From Desulfobacteraceae bacterium (GTDB lineage Bacteria; Desulfobacterota; Desulfobacteria; Desulfobacterales; UBA2174): a stretch of DNA of 33,744 bases. The notes under the pieces are model-generated. The model worked only from the letters and a program-made list of their open reading frames with translations, had not been told where the DNA came from and made no database searches. The translations under genes and the position numbers were made by a program. The stretch is from contig JAQVTF010000016.1 of the NCBI GenBank assembly GCA_028700185.1, positions 1 to 33,744 on the forward strand, given 5' to 3'. Shown here piece by piece: positions 41 to 22,765 of the stretch; within the stretch, counting starts at the first letter, position 1; each line of letters starts with the position of its first letter.

Positions 41-349
41 TCACTTTAGCTCACTTGACACTTTTTTTAAGTGACTAAAATTACGAGTGACTAAAGTGAC
101 TAAAGTGGTGGTGTCGCTGCGCTCCGGGTTTTTATATAACTGCCAGAATTCATTAACTTTAGCTCACTTTAGTCACTTTAGCTCACTTGACACTTTTTTT
201 AAGTGACTAAAATTACGAGTGACTAAAGTGACTAAAGTGGTGGTGTCGCTGCGCTCCGGGTTTTTATATAACTGCCAGAATTCATTAACTATAGCTCACT
301 TTAGTCACTTTAGCTCACTTGTCACTTTTTTTTAGTGACTAAAGTGTCG
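41..349. repeat. 132-bp tandem duplication with 9-nt repeat arms
   Basis: Bases 41-172 and 173-304 are near-identical 132-bp units; I see one difference in the ATTAACT(T/A)TAG stretch. A partial third copy begins at 305 and diverges after about 30 bases. Each unit holds 9-nt-periodic AGTGACTAA arms and a core containing GTCGCTGCGCTCCGG followed by an AT-rich stretch and GAATTC. The arm at 91-107 is perfectly complementary to 165-181 (17 bp), so each unit can fold into a long hairpin. A related element in reverse orientation lies at 21022-21230. No coding sequence is apparent. Together with the following bases this accounts for the gene-free stretch 1-442. Confidence 0.9.
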
Positions 350-442
350 GCAAAAAAAGTGACGGAACCCCGACTTTGACGGGGCCCTGGCGACGGGACC
401 GGTGGAAGTTGAGTTTTCTCCGTTTTGGCGATAGAATTATAC

Positions 443-5948: not shown

Positions 5949-8759
5949 ATGGACTACAAAAAGACGCTCAACCTGCCCCAAACCGATTTTCCCATGAAGG
6001 CCAACCTGGCTCAGCGCGAGCCGGAGCAGCTCACCGCCTGGCAGCAGGCGAACCTGTACCGCAAGATTCGCCGCCTCTCGGCCGGCCGGCCCCCGTTCAT
6101 TCTTCACGACGGCCCGCCCTACGCCAACGGCCATATTCACATCGGCACGGCGATGAACAAAATTCTGAAGGATTTCATCGTGCGCAGCCGCCAGATGGCC
6201 GGTTTCGACGCCGTTTACGTACCGGGATGGGACTGCCACGGATTGCCCATCGAACACAACGTGGACAAGGAGCTGGGTCCCAAAAAACTCAGCATGAGCC
6301 AGGCCGATGTGCGGCGCCAATGCCGGGTCTACGCCGAACGTTTCATCGATGTGCAACGCGACGAGTTCAAACGCCTCGGGGTTACCGGGGAATGGGAAAA
6401 CCCCTATCTGACCATGGCCTATCCGTACGAGGCAACCATCGCCCGCGAGTGTTTCAAATTCGCCGTGGATGGCAGCCTCTTTCGCAGCAAGAAGCCGATC
6501 CACTGGTGCTGCAGTTGTCAGACGGCCCTGGCCGAGGCGGAAATCGAGTACGCGGACGAATCCTCGCCGTCGATCTTCGTCAAGTTTCCCATGATCGACG
6601 ATCTCGGCCAGTTGGCGCCGGCGCTGGCCGGACGACCGGTGTCCATGGTCATCTGGACCACCACCCCCTGGACGCTGCCGGCCAACCTCGCCGTGGCGCT
6701 GCACCCGGATTTCACCTACGCCGCCGTGGACACGGGCGCCGAGGTGCTCATCGTGGCCGAGGATCTGGTGGACGGGTGCATGGAAAAATTCCAGGTGGCC
6801 GATTACCGGATCATCGCCCGGCTGGCCGCCGCCGATCTCGAGCACAAGCATTGCCGGCATCCGCTCTACCAGCGCCCCTCGCTGATCATCCTCGGCACCC
6901 ACGTCACCCTGGAGGCCGGCACCGGTTGCGTGCACACCGCCCCCGGTCATGGCCGGGAAGACTACGAGGTGGGGTTGACCTACGGCCTGGACAGTTTTTC
7001 ACCGGTGGACGACCAGGGTCGATTCACCGACGAGGTTCCCGATCTGGCCGGCCAGATGGTTTTCGATGCCAACGCCGGGATCATCGCCCGACTCCGGGAG
7101 AACGGGGCCCTGCTGGCCAGCGAGAAAATCCGCCACAGCTATCCCCACTGCTGGCGCTGCAAAAAACCGGTAATCTTCCGGGCCACCCCCCAGTGGTTCA
7201 TCTCCATGGACCGCACCGGGCTGCGGCAAAAATCCCTGACAGCCATCGACACGGTGACCTGGATTCCCGCCTGGGGAAGGGAGCGGATCTACGGCATGAT
7301 CGAAAACCGACCCGATTGGTGCGTGTCGCGCCAGCGGGCCTGGGGCGTGCCCATCGCCGTGTTCTACTGCGCCCACTGCGAACGGGTCCTCACCGACGCG
7401 GCGGCGATGGAGACGGTCTACCGGCAATTCGAGGCCCAGGGCGCCGACGTGTGGTTCGAGAAATCCACCGCTGAGCTGCTGCCGCCGGGCACGGTTTGTC
7501 CGGAGTGCGGCGGCACCGAATTCATCAAGGAAACCGACATCCTGGATGTCTGGTTCGACTCGGGCGTCAGCCATGCCGCCGTGCTGGAGGCCAGGGACGA
7601 TCTCGTCTGGCCCGCCGATCTCTACCTGGAAGGCAGCGATCAGCACCGGGGGTGGTTTCACTCCTCCCTGCTCACCGCGGTGGGCACCCGGGGCCAGGCC
7701 CCTTACAAGGCCGTGCTGACCCACGGATTCGTGGTGGACGCCGAAGGCAAGAAAATGAGCAAGTCCCTGGGCAACGTGGTGGCTCCGGCGGAGGTGATCC
7801 GCCGTTTCGGCGCCGAGGTACTGCGTCTCTGGGTATCGGCGGCCGATTACCGCGAGGACGTGCGCATTTCCGAGAACATCCTGAAGCAGCTCAGCGATGC
7901 CTACCGGCGCATCCGCAACACCTGCCGTTTCATGCTGGGCAATCTCTACGATTTCGACCCGGCCAAGGACGCGGTGGACCGCGAGCGGATGCCGGAAATC
8001 GACCGCTTCGCCCTGCACCGGCTTCAGGAACTGGTGGCCAAGTGTCGCCGGGCTTATGAGCGCTACGAATTTCACACCATCCACCACGCCTTGCACAACT
8101 ACTGCGTGGTGGATTTGTCGTCCTTCTACCTCGACGTACTCAAGGATCGGCTCTACACCACGGCGCCGGCGGATCCGGCCCGGCGCAGCGCCCAGACCAC
8201 CATGGCGCTGATTCTCGACGCCCTCACCCGGCTCATGGCGCCGGTACTCTGTTTCACCGCCGAGGAAATCTGGCGCTACATGCCTGGTGCGGACCGGCCG
8301 GAATCGGTGCACATGGCCACCCTCCCCGAGCCGGATCCGGCGTGGGAAGACCGTTCCCTGGCCGAGCGCTGGAATTTTTTCCTCGAAGTGCGCGGTGAAG
8401 TGACCCGGGCCCTGGAAATCGCCCGGGCCGAAAAACGGATCGGCCACGGCCTGGACGCCGGCGTGACGATTTACGCCGCCAATGAAACCCACCGGCGACT
8501 GGCGCCTTTCGCCGATCAGATGAGCACCCTGCTCATCGTCTCGGCGGCGACCCTGGTGGAGGCGGCCACTCCCCAAGACGCCTTCAAGGCCGAGGCCATC
8601 GCCGAGCTGGGCGTACGGGTGGAAACTGCCCCGGGCCAAAAATGCGCCCGCTGCTGGGTTCGCGATCCGGCCGTGGGCAGCGATCCCGTCCATCCGGACA
8701 TCTGCCCCCGCTGTTTGGCCGCCCTGGCGGCCATCGGCGCCGGGGAAAACGATCATTGA
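5949..8759 (+). CDS. ileS: Isoleucyl-tRNA synthetase
   Basis: This class I synthetase charges tRNA-Ile in the cytoplasm. The protein is 936 aa, a normal bacterial length. The HIGH-type site is GHIHIG at residues 61-66 and the KMSKS loop is at residues 602-606. The central editing domain contains [13 protein letters not shown] and the [12 protein letters not shown] segment. The anticodon-binding domain follows, and the C terminus ends with a zinc-knuckle pattern, CARCW and CPRC. ATG 5949 is preceded by GGAGGCGAG. Its stop overlaps the possible TTG start of lspA. The ileS-lspA pairing is a common bacterial arrangement. Confidence 0.98.
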
Positions 8760-12148: not shown

Positions 12149-12163
12149 GGAAACTGGATGCTT

Positions 12164-12219
12164 GAAACTCGAAACTTGAAACTCGAAACTCGAAACTCGA
12201 AACTTGAAACTCGAAACTT
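12164..12219. repeat. Eight tandem heptamers GAAACT(C/T)
   Basis: Eight consecutive 7-nt units read C,T,C,C,C,T,C,T at the last position of GAAACT(C/T), with no other mismatch. The array starts 15 bp after the pyk stop. There is no coding potential in it. It adjoins two other short-repeat stretches, at 12233 and 12260. Confidence 0.95.
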
Positions 12220-12232
12220 GGTCATCGGACCT

Positions 12233-17890: not shown

Positions 17891-17906
17891 TTTAGGAGCC
17901 GAAAAC

Positions 17907-18039
17907 AGGACCGATAAGACGCAAAAAAATAGGGCCAATAAGACGCATCAGACCTATTTTCATCAGTCCTATAATCCGCTTTATACGTCCTATGGGCCCT
18001 ATAAGTCTTATCGCTCTTATTGGTCTTATCGGCCTTACC
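17907..18039. repeat. Palindromic array of 9-nt repeats between livF and argC
   Basis: The right half reads as consecutive 9-nt units of form TATNNGTCT (TATAAGTCT, TATCGCTCT, TATTGGTCT, TATCGGCCT). The left half holds complementary units such as GACCGATAA and GCCAATAAG. Nested complementary pairs are visible: 17911-17920 with 18023-18032, 17935-17943 with 18015-18023, and 17930-17936 with 17995-18001. A transcript could fold over about 120 nt. No gene is apparent. Confidence 0.8.
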
Positions 18040-19659: not shown

Positions 19660-20961
19660 TCAGTGCATCAGGTTCGGCAAGAAGAGCGCCAACTGGGGAA
19701 AGGGAATCAGTAACAGGGTGCAAAAAATCAACGCCACCAGCAGCGGCACCACGCCCCTGAAAATATCCTCCAGCGCCACGTCGGTGGACACCCCGCTCAC
19801 CACGTAGACGTTGACGCCCACCGGCGGGGTAATCACTCCGATCTGCGTCACCATCACCACCACCACGCCGAACCACACCGGGCTAAACCCCAGGTCGATC
19901 ACCACCGGATAGAAAATCGGCACCGTGAGCATGATCAGGGCCAGGGCATCGATGAAGCAGCCGCCCACCAGATAGACCAAGATGATCAGCGCCATGACGG
20001 CCGGCGCCGGCCAGTTGAACCCGGCGACCCAGTTGGCGATGTCAAAGGGAATCCGGGTAACGGCGAGAAAATGCCCGAAAACGGTGGCACCGGCCACGAT
20101 GACCAAAATCATGCAGGAGATTCGGGTACTTTCCTGGAGCGCTTGCCAAAGGTCTTTCAGGGTGATGGTACGACGCACCCCGGCGATGACAAGGGTGCCG
20201 AAGGCGCCGACGGCCCCGGCCTCGGTGGGGGTGAAAAAACCGAGAAACAAGCCCCCCATCACCAGGATGAACAGCAGTAATGTTTCGATGAGTCCGGATA
20301 GGGAGGCAATGCGCTGCTTCCAGGTCGACCGCGGCCCCCGGGGGGCCACCGACGGGTCCAGTATGGCCCAGATGGTGACGGCCAGGCCAAAACTCACCGC
20401 CAGCAGAATGCCCGGCAGGATGCCGGCGATGAAAAGCCGGCCGATGGACTGCTCCGTCATGATCCCGTAGACGATGAAGATGACGCTGGGGGGAATGAGG
20501 ATGCCGAGGCTGCCACCGGCGGCCACCACCCCTCCGGCGAGGGTGTCATGGTAGTGGTAGCGCCGCATTTCCGGCAGCGTCACCGCCGCCATGGTGGCCG
20601 CGGTGGCGTTGGTGGAACCGCAGATGGCCGAAAACCCGGCGCAGGCGCCGATGGTGGCGATGGCCATCCCCCCGGGCCAGTGGCCGATGAAGCGGTGGGC
20701 CACATCGAAAAGCCGTCGGCTGATACCGGAGTGGTAGGCGATCTGCCCCATAAGAATGAACAGGGGAATCACCGTCAGGTTGTATGATCCGAAGACCTCG
20801 TAGATGTCCTTGACCACCACGTTGAGGGCAGCGCTGACGGAGACGACGTACCCGAAACCGATGAAACCGAGCAGCATCATCACGAAGCCGACGGGCATGC
20901 GCGAAAAGATCAGGATCACCAGGGCCGCCAGGCCGACGATGCCGGTTGTTGTTGGACTCAT
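19660..20961 (-). CDS. dctM: TRAP transporter large permease (DctM family)
   Basis: This is the main membrane subunit of a sodium-driven tripartite (TRAP) carboxylate importer. The 433-aa protein is almost wholly hydrophobic, with about eleven or twelve predicted helices. Family motifs are LIFSRMPVGFVMMLLGFIG near the start, GGSLGILIPPSVIFIVYGI in the first half and TPPVGVNVYVVSGVS near the end. The start at 20961 has GAGGA about fourteen bases upstream on its strand, which is weak. It is third in the dctP-dctQ-dctM order but lies 283 bp from dctQ because of an inserted repeat element. Confidence 0.95.
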   Translation of the reverse strand: MSPTTTGIVGLAALVILIFSRMPVGFVMMLLGFIGFGYVVSVSAALNVVVKDIYEVFGSYNLTVIPLFILMGQIAYHSGISRRLFDVAHRFIGHWPGGMAIATIGACAGFSAICGSTNATAATMAAVTLPEMRRYHYHDTLAGGVVAAGGSLGILIPPSVIFIVYGIMTEQSIGRLFIAGILPGILLAVSFGLAVTIWAILDPSVAPRGPRSTWKQRIASLSGLIETLLLFILVMGGLFLGFFTPTEAGAVGAFGTLVIAGVRRTITLKDLWQALQESTRISCMILVIVAGATVFGHFLAVTRIPFDIANWVAGFNWPAPAVMALIILVYLVGGCFIDALALIMLTVPIFYPVVIDLGFSPVWFGVVVVMVTQIGVITPPVGVNVYVVSGVSTDVALEDIFRGVVPLLVALIFCTLLLIPFPQLALFLPNLMH

Positions 20962-21021: not shown

Positions 21022-21230
21022 AAGTTACGAGTGCGTTAAAGTGACTAAAGTGACTAAAGTGAACTAAAGTGACTAAAGTGAACTAAAGTGACTAAAGTGA
21101 AGGAATTCTAACAGTTATAAATATAACCGGAGCGAAGCGACTCCACAATTTTAGTCACTTTAGTCACTCGTAACTTTAGTCACTGAAATTAGTCACTCGT
21201 AACTTTAGTCACTGAAATTAGTCACTCCCA
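21022..21230. repeat. 9-nt repeat hairpin element inside the TRAP operon
   Basis: The left arm carries repeated AGTGACTAA/ACTAAAGTG units. The core, GGAATTCTAACAGTTATAA then ATATAACCGGAGCGAAGCGAC, is a diverged reverse complement of the core at 41-304. The arm at 21040-21058 is perfectly complementary to 21150-21168 (19 bp). The right side also contains a 29-nt direct repeat (21161-21189 and 21190-21218). It fills most of the gap between dctQ and dctM. Confidence 0.88.
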
Positions 21231-21244
21231 ACTCTACTCCCTTC

Positions 21245-21718
21245 TCAATTCCTCAAATTATCCACGACCCTCGCCGCCAGCACCAGACACAGGACGGCGC
21301 AGCCGGCGCCGATTCCGTAAACCACCGGGAAAACGGGCAACTGGAGGGTCATGGAGACTTCTCCGCTGGCCTTGAGCTCGGCGGCGTAAATGACGCACTG
21401 CCAAGTGACCATGGCGAAGAGGACGATGCACACCGCGTCGTTGACGGCATCCACGATGCGCTGGGTGCGTGGTGACAGCCGCATCACCAGAAAATCCACC
21501 GCGATGTGCCCCTTGTCCACCGAGGTCTGGGCCAGGGCGAAGGAAACGAAGAGGGCCGCCAGGAAGCCCATCAGCTCGTAGGTGCCGGTGATGGGCCACC
21601 GCATGAGGCGCAAAACGATGTCGGCACAGGTCAACAGCATCATGGCCATCACCGCCGCGGCCGACAGGGCGTTCAGGGACCGGGTGAGCCAGGCGAGTCT
21701 GTTAGTCAAGGTTGGCAT
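21245..21718 (-). CDS. dctQ: TRAP transporter small permease (DctQ family)
   Basis: This is the small membrane subunit that pairs with DctM. The 157-aa protein has four hydrophobic segments. The family-typical second-third region ITGTYELMGFLAALFVSFA is followed by KGHIAVDFL, as expected. The start at 21718 is supported by GGGAGGAAGT on the coding strand. It lies 24 bp after dctP; the distance to dctM is unusually large because of the repeat element. Confidence 0.93.
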   Translation of the reverse strand: MPTLTNRLAWLTRSLNALSAAAVMAMMLLTCADIVLRLMRWPITGTYELMGFLAALFVSFALAQTSVDKGHIAVDFLVMRLSPRTQRIVDAVNDAVCIVLFAMVTWQCVIYAAELKASGEVSMTLQLPVFPVVYGIGAGCAVLCLVLAARVVDNLRN

Positions 21719-21742: not shown

Positions 21743-22765
21743 CTACCGCGGGTTGTCGGCGATGGCCGTCTTGAGGGTATCGACGATTTTCTTTCCATCC
21801 AATCCCTTGTCGTTGGCTTCCTGGACGTAGGCATCGATGATCGGGGTCACCGCTGTCTGCCAGCGGGCCTGTTCAGCTTCCGTCAAGGGGACGATGCCGT
21901 TGCCCAGGCTGAGGGTGAACCGTCGGCCCGCTTCGTCCACTTCGTCCCATTTTTGGCCATGCACGTCGATATACGCCGCGTTGACGGCTTCAAAGATCGC
22001 TTTTTGGTCATCGCTCAGGGCATCCCACTTTTGGCGGTTCATCACCACGAACATGGTGGTGGTGTACCCCACCGCCTGGCATTCGGTGGTGCTCTTGATC
22101 ACTTCGGCCTGGCGCCAGCCCTTGAGTACCTCGATGGGCCCGAAGGTCCCCTCCACCACCCCTTTTTGAAGATTTTCATAGGTTTCATTCTGAGGTTTGG
22201 CCACCGGCACCGCCCCGAGGGCCTCGACGATCTTGGCGCTCAGTCCGGTGGAGCGGATTTTCATCCCTTTGAGATCCTCCAGCGTCTGGACCGGCCTGCG
22301 GGTATGCAGCAGCCCGGGGCCGTGGGCGTGCAGGTACATCACCTGGACATCCGAGAGTTCGGCCGGCTTGAGGGCTTGGTAGAAATCATTGGCGGCCCGG
22401 GTGGCCTGCAAGCCGTTGGCATAGCCCATGGGCAGGTCCACCGCCTCCATGGTGGGAAAACGGCCCCGGGTGTAGGCGAAGCAGGACATGGCGATATCCG
22501 AGATGCCTTTGATCACCCCGTCGTAGGCCTGGGGAGGGGAAGTGAGGGTGCCGCCGGGAAACACGGTAATCTTCACCTGGCCGTCGGTGCGCTTTTCGAT
22601 TTCCTGGGCCCAGTCCATGGCGGCTTGGCACTGACCATGGGTCGCCGGGAAAAAGATGCTGTAGGTCAACTCCACCGGAGCCGCTGCAACAGAGGCCGGC
22701 TGCAGGGCCAGGATGAACGCGCACAGCAATACGGTGGCAAACGACAACAAACGGATGGCTCTCAT
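21743..22765 (-). CDS. dctP: TRAP transporter solute-binding protein (DctP family)
   Basis: This is the periplasmic receptor of the TRAP importer. The 340-aa precursor has a signal peptide with likely cleavage after VAA near residue 29 (SVAAAPVELTYSIFFP). The DctP fold markers are visible: GGTLTSPPQAYDGVIKGISD, then the conserved arginine in LKGMKIRSTG that normally clamps the ligand carboxylate, and NETYENLQKGVVEGTFGP. The ligand is therefore probably an organic acid; nothing narrows it further. AAGGAG lies upstream of the start at 22765. First gene of the operon. Confidence 0.94.
   Translation of the reverse strand: MRAIRLLSFATVLLCAFILALQPASVAAAPVELTYSIFFPATHGQCQAAMDWAQEIEKRTDGQVKITVFPGGTLTSPPQAYDGVIKGISDIAMSCFAYTRGRFPTMEAVDLPMGYANGLQATRAANDFYQALKPAELSDVQVMYLHAHGPGLLHTRRPVQTLEDLKGMKIRSTGLSAKIVEALGAVPVAKPQNETYENLQKGVVEGTFGPIEVLKGWRQAEVIKSTTECQAVGYTTTMFVVMNRQKWDALSDDQKAIFEAVNAAYIDVHGQKWDEVDEAGRRFTLSLGNGIVPLTEAEQARWQTAVTPIIDAYVQEANDKGLDGKKIVDTLKTAIADNPR

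Follow-up and report, generated by a model that had tools for sequence, protein, structure and literature searches.

An arm–core–arm element between dctQ and dctM

The window (the whole 33,744-nucleotide stretch analysed here) belongs to a 3.29 Mb Desulfobacteraceae genome in 292 contigs (G000) and carries a TRAP transporter operon in which an element made largely of short repeats lies between the genes for the two permease subunits. Its features, and those of a related array at the left end of the window, are as follows.

21743–22765, minus strand: DctP gene of the TRAP operon (Pfam)
21245–21718, minus strand: dctQ, TRAP small permease subunit, the upstream gene (Pfam PF04290, E 6e-26)
21022–21230, plus strand: the entire arm–core–arm element, orientation set by the GGAGC...GCGAC hairpin
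21037–21100, plus strand: left arm, about seven iterations of AGTGACTAA / AGTGAACTAA (9/10-mers)
21101–21146, plus strand: core of 46 bp, AGGAATTC, an AT-rich spacer and CCGGAGCGAAGCGACTCCAC
21129–21144, plus strand: right-end mini-hairpin GGAGC-GAA-GCGACTCC, with a GNA triloop at 21134–21136
21147–21227, plus strand: right arm, inverted 9/10-mers TTTAGTCACT, including the 29-nt sub-repeat
21160–21217, plus strand: 29-nt sub-repeat, two exact copies (local tandem expansion)
19660–20961, minus strand: dctM, TRAP large permease subunit, the downstream gene (Pfam PF06808, E 7e-102)
41–343, minus strand: left-end tandem array with a 132-bp period and two full cores, related to the TRAP copy
344–388, minus strand: right end of the CAGGG-TIR MITE around the left-end array

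The dctQ–dctM gap that holds the element is 283 nt long. As throughout the family described below, the arms are inverted arrays of 9/10-mers of the form (A)AGTGA(G/A/-)CTAA that flank the core on both sides, giving it the terminal inverted repeats of a MITE, with inner ends AAGTTAAGGAAT / ATTCCTTAACTT. The first-pass annotation had singled out a pair of 19-bp arms; these are indeed exactly complementary (21040–21058 against 21150–21168, 100%) but are just the longest exact pairing between two 9/10-mer arrays. Its 29-nt sub-repeat with local expansion is borne out, 21160–21188 and 21189–21217 being 100% identical, as is the relationship it drew to the left end of the window: the core at 21101–21146 on the plus strand matches the cores at 109–152 and 241–284 on the minus strand, and the two elements are thus related and inverted relative to one another.

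At the left end, two full cores and a fragment are arranged in tandem, and this array lies within one half of a distinct MITE with CAGGG ends. Bases 1–129 of the window match the end of contig C197 (L063) exactly. As the contig breaks inside this array, its copy number is uncertain. Other short-period repeats in the window include a GAAACTC/GAAACTT heptamer array (12150–12220, 7-nt period, about eight units), probably in an intergenic gap, and further examples at 1276–1305, 17902–17947 and 17981–18037 (GTTCAAGG/GTTCAAA 14-mer; 24-nt and 18-nt periods).

A repeat family of one bacterial order

Sequence comparison establishes that the TRAP copy belongs to a family that has spread and amplified. 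In its own genome, BLAST returned 137 pieces on more than 30 contigs, the best off-site match (E 3e-53) being far beyond chance. Pattern searches and fetched loci provided the inventory for this genome. The core has 42 nhmmer matches in the fetched loci and, with up to one mismatch allowed, 43 right ends were counted (with 27 each in G001 and G015, and 0 in controls), from which we estimate about 50 core-bearing copies. Many of these form tandem clusters with a spacing of about 120–150 bp.

Dozens of related genomes of sulfate-reducer type carry the family. Across the order, the pattern AAGTTAAGGAAT-N30-60-AACTTTAG turned up in 51 of the 389 genomes sampled, at most 52 times in any one of them, and a reversed-pattern control gave a single match. 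A phylum-wide sample of 395 genomes yielded three with matches, two from the order and G742, the one positive among 378 genomes of other orders. The G742 match (L369, contig C388) is one complete unit, which could reflect horizontal transfer or a contaminant contig. The plasmids, phages and viral contigs searched contained no match to the family, and Rfam covariance models gave 0 matches for the window and 0 for 11 element loci at E <= 0.5. A search of open-access literature for the arm and frame motifs found no relevant report, though subscription papers may differ; the family has apparently not been filed before.

Judged by core identity, amplification has been lineage-specific and has occurred in bursts: cores are 0.88, 0.95 and 0.84 identical within G064, G176 and G265, respectively, versus 0.33–0.67 between these and other genomes. 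The values within G000 (0.59) and G001 (0.57) are low owing to the odd core types mixed in, and both are excluded as evidence for a recent burst.

The family is intergenic: 45 of 46 arrays in the G000 loci lie between genes as delimited by a simple, purpose-written gene caller. The types of neighbouring gene fit the background in G002 (DQXI01, Desulfobacteraceae isolate HyVt-13), a member of the same genus and the nearest relative. Where a copy whose core is resolved lies between co-directional genes, a hand tally gave about nine copies sense to transcription versus four antisense, in which no bias is evident. With nearly all copies intergenic and no detectable orientation bias, we interpret the family as a miniature mobile element that is non-autonomous and acts at the level of DNA.

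Exchangeable halves and larger frames

The two ends of the unit differ in constancy. At L048, L050, L055, L056, L057, L060, L062 and L065, and at several G001 loci, the common right end is joined to other sequences, and some one-ended copies lack the left arm. In G000, the least biased set, copies with the right end only (5 of 47) show a weak excess over those with the left end only (about 1 of 30), part of which may be ascertainment; since loci were partly chosen by their right ends, the asymmetry is suggestive only.

Units are also found nested within unrelated larger repeats. A MITE-like frame with CAGGG(T/C)(C/T)CCGTCAAAG ends, which we take to resemble ISAs1-type ends, is seen at 344–388 in the window and at L037, L039, L042, L043, L047 and L054, and at L039 it is flanked by a 10-bp direct duplication, TTTCCGGCCC. 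This CAGGG MITE clearly carries some copies along with it. In G176 and G265, the family unit sits within a quite different frame, CCTAACCCGGACAAGCCGGAACC...TTTACAACTAAGGAACTAA (the CCTAACCCGGACAAGCCGG frame), whose end motif has 107 and 57 matches in these genomes, respectively, and 0 in that of the window. At L309–L338 (G176, G265 and G064), the short-period hairpins inserted in a frame CCTAACCCGGACAAGCCGGAACC...ACAACTAAGGAACTAA are interchangeable (GAATTGAGG, GCACAAAGACACAAAGG, CACGAAAGCACGAAG, GAAATTCGAA, GAAGCTGAAAGC or AGTGACTAAA), and some frames have no insert. We considered whether the CCTAACCCGGACAAGCCGG frame might be an integron attC site, its 5' part resembling R''-L'', and dropped the idea as no matching L'-R' end was seen. 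Another mosaic, at L218 in G002 (8094–8187), combines arms of the AGTGACTAAA type with a GC-rich core of unrelated sequence.

Might the unit then have no mobility of its own, spreading only inside other MITEs of the CAGGG-TIR or CCTAACCCGGACAAGCCGG type, with stand-alone copies being remnants of decayed frames or products of repeat recombination? The CAGGG termini at the left-end copy and at L037, L039 (with its flanking duplication), L042, L047 and L054 are as this would predict, as are the interchangeable inserts in G176 and G265. However, neither CAGGG nor any other frame sequence is present at the TRAP copy, and L044, L050, L051 and L059 likewise lack a frame; one and the same unit is common to unrelated frames in different genomes, and the insertion at L059, described below, is near-clean. 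We consider this explanation unlikely, though it survives better than the other alternatives. The copies have ragged ends, and no target-site duplication attributable to the unit itself was seen at the TRAP site, L059 or L050.

Presence and absence at orthologous sites

The first-pass annotation held that the element separates two genes normally close together or fused, and comparison with other TRAP operons agrees that the two are normally contiguous. Among 78 DctM relatives with a detectable DctQ, 61 have genes that overlap by 4 nt (a gap of -4 nt), as do dctQ and dctM in the best G001 TRAP operon, and of the gaps printed in this comparison none outside the genus contains a repeat. A second dctP-dctQ-dctM operon in the same genome (L031, contig C142) has a right-end-only copy at about 2620–2690, just downstream of dctM. 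We rejected this as a parallel insertion because of that position and the single end; dctQ and dctM overlap there as normal.

The element is thus not ancestral to the operon, but the site in G002 is not cleanly empty. G002 is 84–87% identical around the TRAP site, and its dctQ–dctM gap of 80 nt contains AAGTTACAAGTGACTAAAGTGAATTA (26 nt), a remnant or a seed. If a remnant, the insertion may predate the G002/G000 split. With remnant-like sequence also found at the G002 sites corresponding to L044 and L051, loss from G002 is as likely as gain in G000 at the TRAP site and possibly at these two. Elsewhere, sequence differs by presence and absence: L059 is a near-clean site, 140 bp being inserted at a point at which a stop and a start codon overlap in G002, and the orthologous G002 sites of L050, L039 and L047 are without the element. 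At L052 a copy is present in both genomes. Copy number differs strongly between the two, since G002 has just three multi-unit arrays in 1.44 Mb.

The short sequence in G002 could instead be read as a seed of AGTGACTAA units from which the TRAP array grew by slippage with no insertion at all, and the exact 29-nt duplication and variable arm length would fit such growth. This is disfavoured by the non-repetitive core, which is common to dozens of loci and to other genera, and by the scarcity of potential seeds implied by the three arrays in G002. We therefore give local expansion very little credence.

Is there a role in RNA?

It had also been suggested that the arms might form a strong transcript hairpin and alter the ratio of the two permease subunits. 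The fold predicted for the RNA of the TRAP copy (-80 kcal/mol, z -9.5) allows such a hairpin; the predicted DNA fold is also strong (z -10.3). A polar effect of the element on dctM is possible. Lying as it does between two co-directional genes of one operon, the element might on this view act as an operon-specific regulatory RNA whose hairpin would set the dctQ:dctM ratio. Against this, about 50 copies occupy unrelated loci, and their mixed orientation relative to transcription speaks against selection for an RNA role specific to this operon; the element is absent from the corresponding operon in relatives; and the one terminator-like match on the transcribed strand is weak (six pairs, tail GTTATATTTA).

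Co-variation between arms, as a sign of a selected long RNA hairpin, was looked for and rejected: arms scored 39.4 with their own partners versus 44.4 when permuted between copies. Because complementarity within copies is below that between copies, the arms appear to be conserved as units and not as a matched stem, and units that bind protein or serve in copying would account for this better than a long RNA hairpin under selection. Such a regulatory role therefore seems to us highly improbable.

A conserved mini-hairpin at the right end

The most constant part of the unit is its right end. Mini-hairpins of the d(GCGNAGC) type are known from oligonucleotide studies; we know of no description of one as the conserved end of a bacterial repeat. 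We compiled by hand, from search outputs, 65 unique versions of the right end from 23 genomes. The 16-mer GGAGCGNAGCGACNCC forms a nearly invariant end in which the inner stem positions carry 1.67–2.0 bits and the middle base of the loop 0.35 bits. The first loop base is a purine in all versions but one and the last is always A or G, mostly A. A nearly fixed stem with a freely varying middle loop base is characteristic of mini-hairpins of the d(GCGNAGC) type.

Two further observations concern the stem. The outer pair (positions 1 and 13) changes from G-C to A-T in four genomes (Fisher p 0.007, with relatedness ignored), and at L049 the hairpin is fully Watson–Crick, AGCGC-GAA-GCGCT. Because position 14 varies freely whilst A3 is fixed, the mini-hairpin is favoured over a longer GGAG/CTCC stem. 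In the f41 genomes its place is taken by CACGCC-GAA-GGCGTG, and there is a second hairpin on the left.

The search for a mobilising enzyme

An intergenic, hairpin-bearing repeat of high copy number invites comparison with REP/REPIN elements mobilised by RAYT (a Y1 HUH transposase), and Y1_Tnp genes were present in 21 of 22 genomes tested. They are, however, equally common in element-free and positive genomes; G240, with 42 element matches in a genome 80% complete, has no detected Y1 gene; inspection of 30 Y1 loci revealed no arm array; and neither a GTAG nor a CGTC tag is conserved in the 18 columns around the hairpin. Mobilisation by IS200/RAYT (Y1) enzymes is thus not supported, and we attach scarcely any weight to it. 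Nor did the fetched loci contain an autonomous copy in the form of a gene bracketed by arms, other than ordinary ABC-transporter genes between two arrays at L038.

Interpretation and comparison with known systems

Taken together, these results lead us to favour, with a probability of roughly 0.6, the view that a family of non-autonomous miniature mobile elements, spread across the order and inserting into intergenic sites, has one of its copies in the TRAP stretch. With no link to Y1 genes and no autonomous copy found, we infer a mechanism that works in trans, at the DNA level and with polarity from the hairpin end. At one end the core carries the almost invariant GNA-triloop mini-hairpin and then AACTTTAGTCACTTTAG; its other half is exchangeable. 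A trans-acting enzyme would recognise both the hairpin and the iterated units of the arms, probably in DNA that is single-stranded or extruded. Copying would begin at the hairpin, with loss or exchange of left halves as a result, and slippage would lengthen and shorten the arms. The copy at the dctQ–dctM junction would have entered in an ancestor and been kept because it lies between genes.

A bolder proposal, which we put forward tentatively and hold to be rather doubtful, is that this is a single-strand-DNA mobile element of a new class. A non-RAYT enzyme would recognise the GNA-triloop mini-hairpin and the 9/10-mer arms, copy from the hairpin end and build mosaics with exchangeable left halves, and the GAATTGAGG, GCACAAAGACACAAAGG, GTTCAAGG and GAAACTC arm families would be sister elements of the same machinery. 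If one machinery does move several arm families, many of the peculiar short-period arrays found between genes in these genomes would be accounted for. More generally, the family takes up intergenic space in a large number of genomes of a single bacterial order, in mosaic with other repeats; its near-invariant mini-hairpin offers a concrete handle on a putative mobilising enzyme, and the near-empty orthologous sites allow insertion to be tested.

Among known systems, MITEs and ERIC-type intergenic repeat units, the latter of 127 bp (PMC2759123, PMC10969869), are similarly short, non-coding, imperfectly palindromic, intergenic and multi-copy, with no encoded transposase. Here, however, the ends are variable 9/10-mer arrays and not fixed TIRs, no target duplication was found and one half of the core is exchangeable. 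REP, BIME and REPIN sequences with their RAYT enzymes (PMC2817692, PMC3116915, PMC3733652) are also hairpin-bearing intergenic repeats in mosaics and tandems, whereas in our family no GTAG tag or RAYT linkage was recognised and the inverted arms are much longer. CGTC-tagged REPs (PMC3733652) are likewise palindromic families without a dedicated transposase, but no CGTC-tagged palindrome of 20–40 bp was recognised here and iterated-unit arms around a core are not described for them. The TAACTGA heptamer repeats of Beggiatoaceae (PMC4679880) share short iterated intergenic motifs, a patchy distribution and a proposed horizontal spread; those arrays are almost all direct only and lie just upstream of start codons, whereas in our family the two arrays are inverted and enclose a conserved core. 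Finally, PMC4686876 cites GCGNAGC as an extraordinarily stable DNA mini-hairpin motif, and it is this motif, with N free, that the conserved right end of the family contains.
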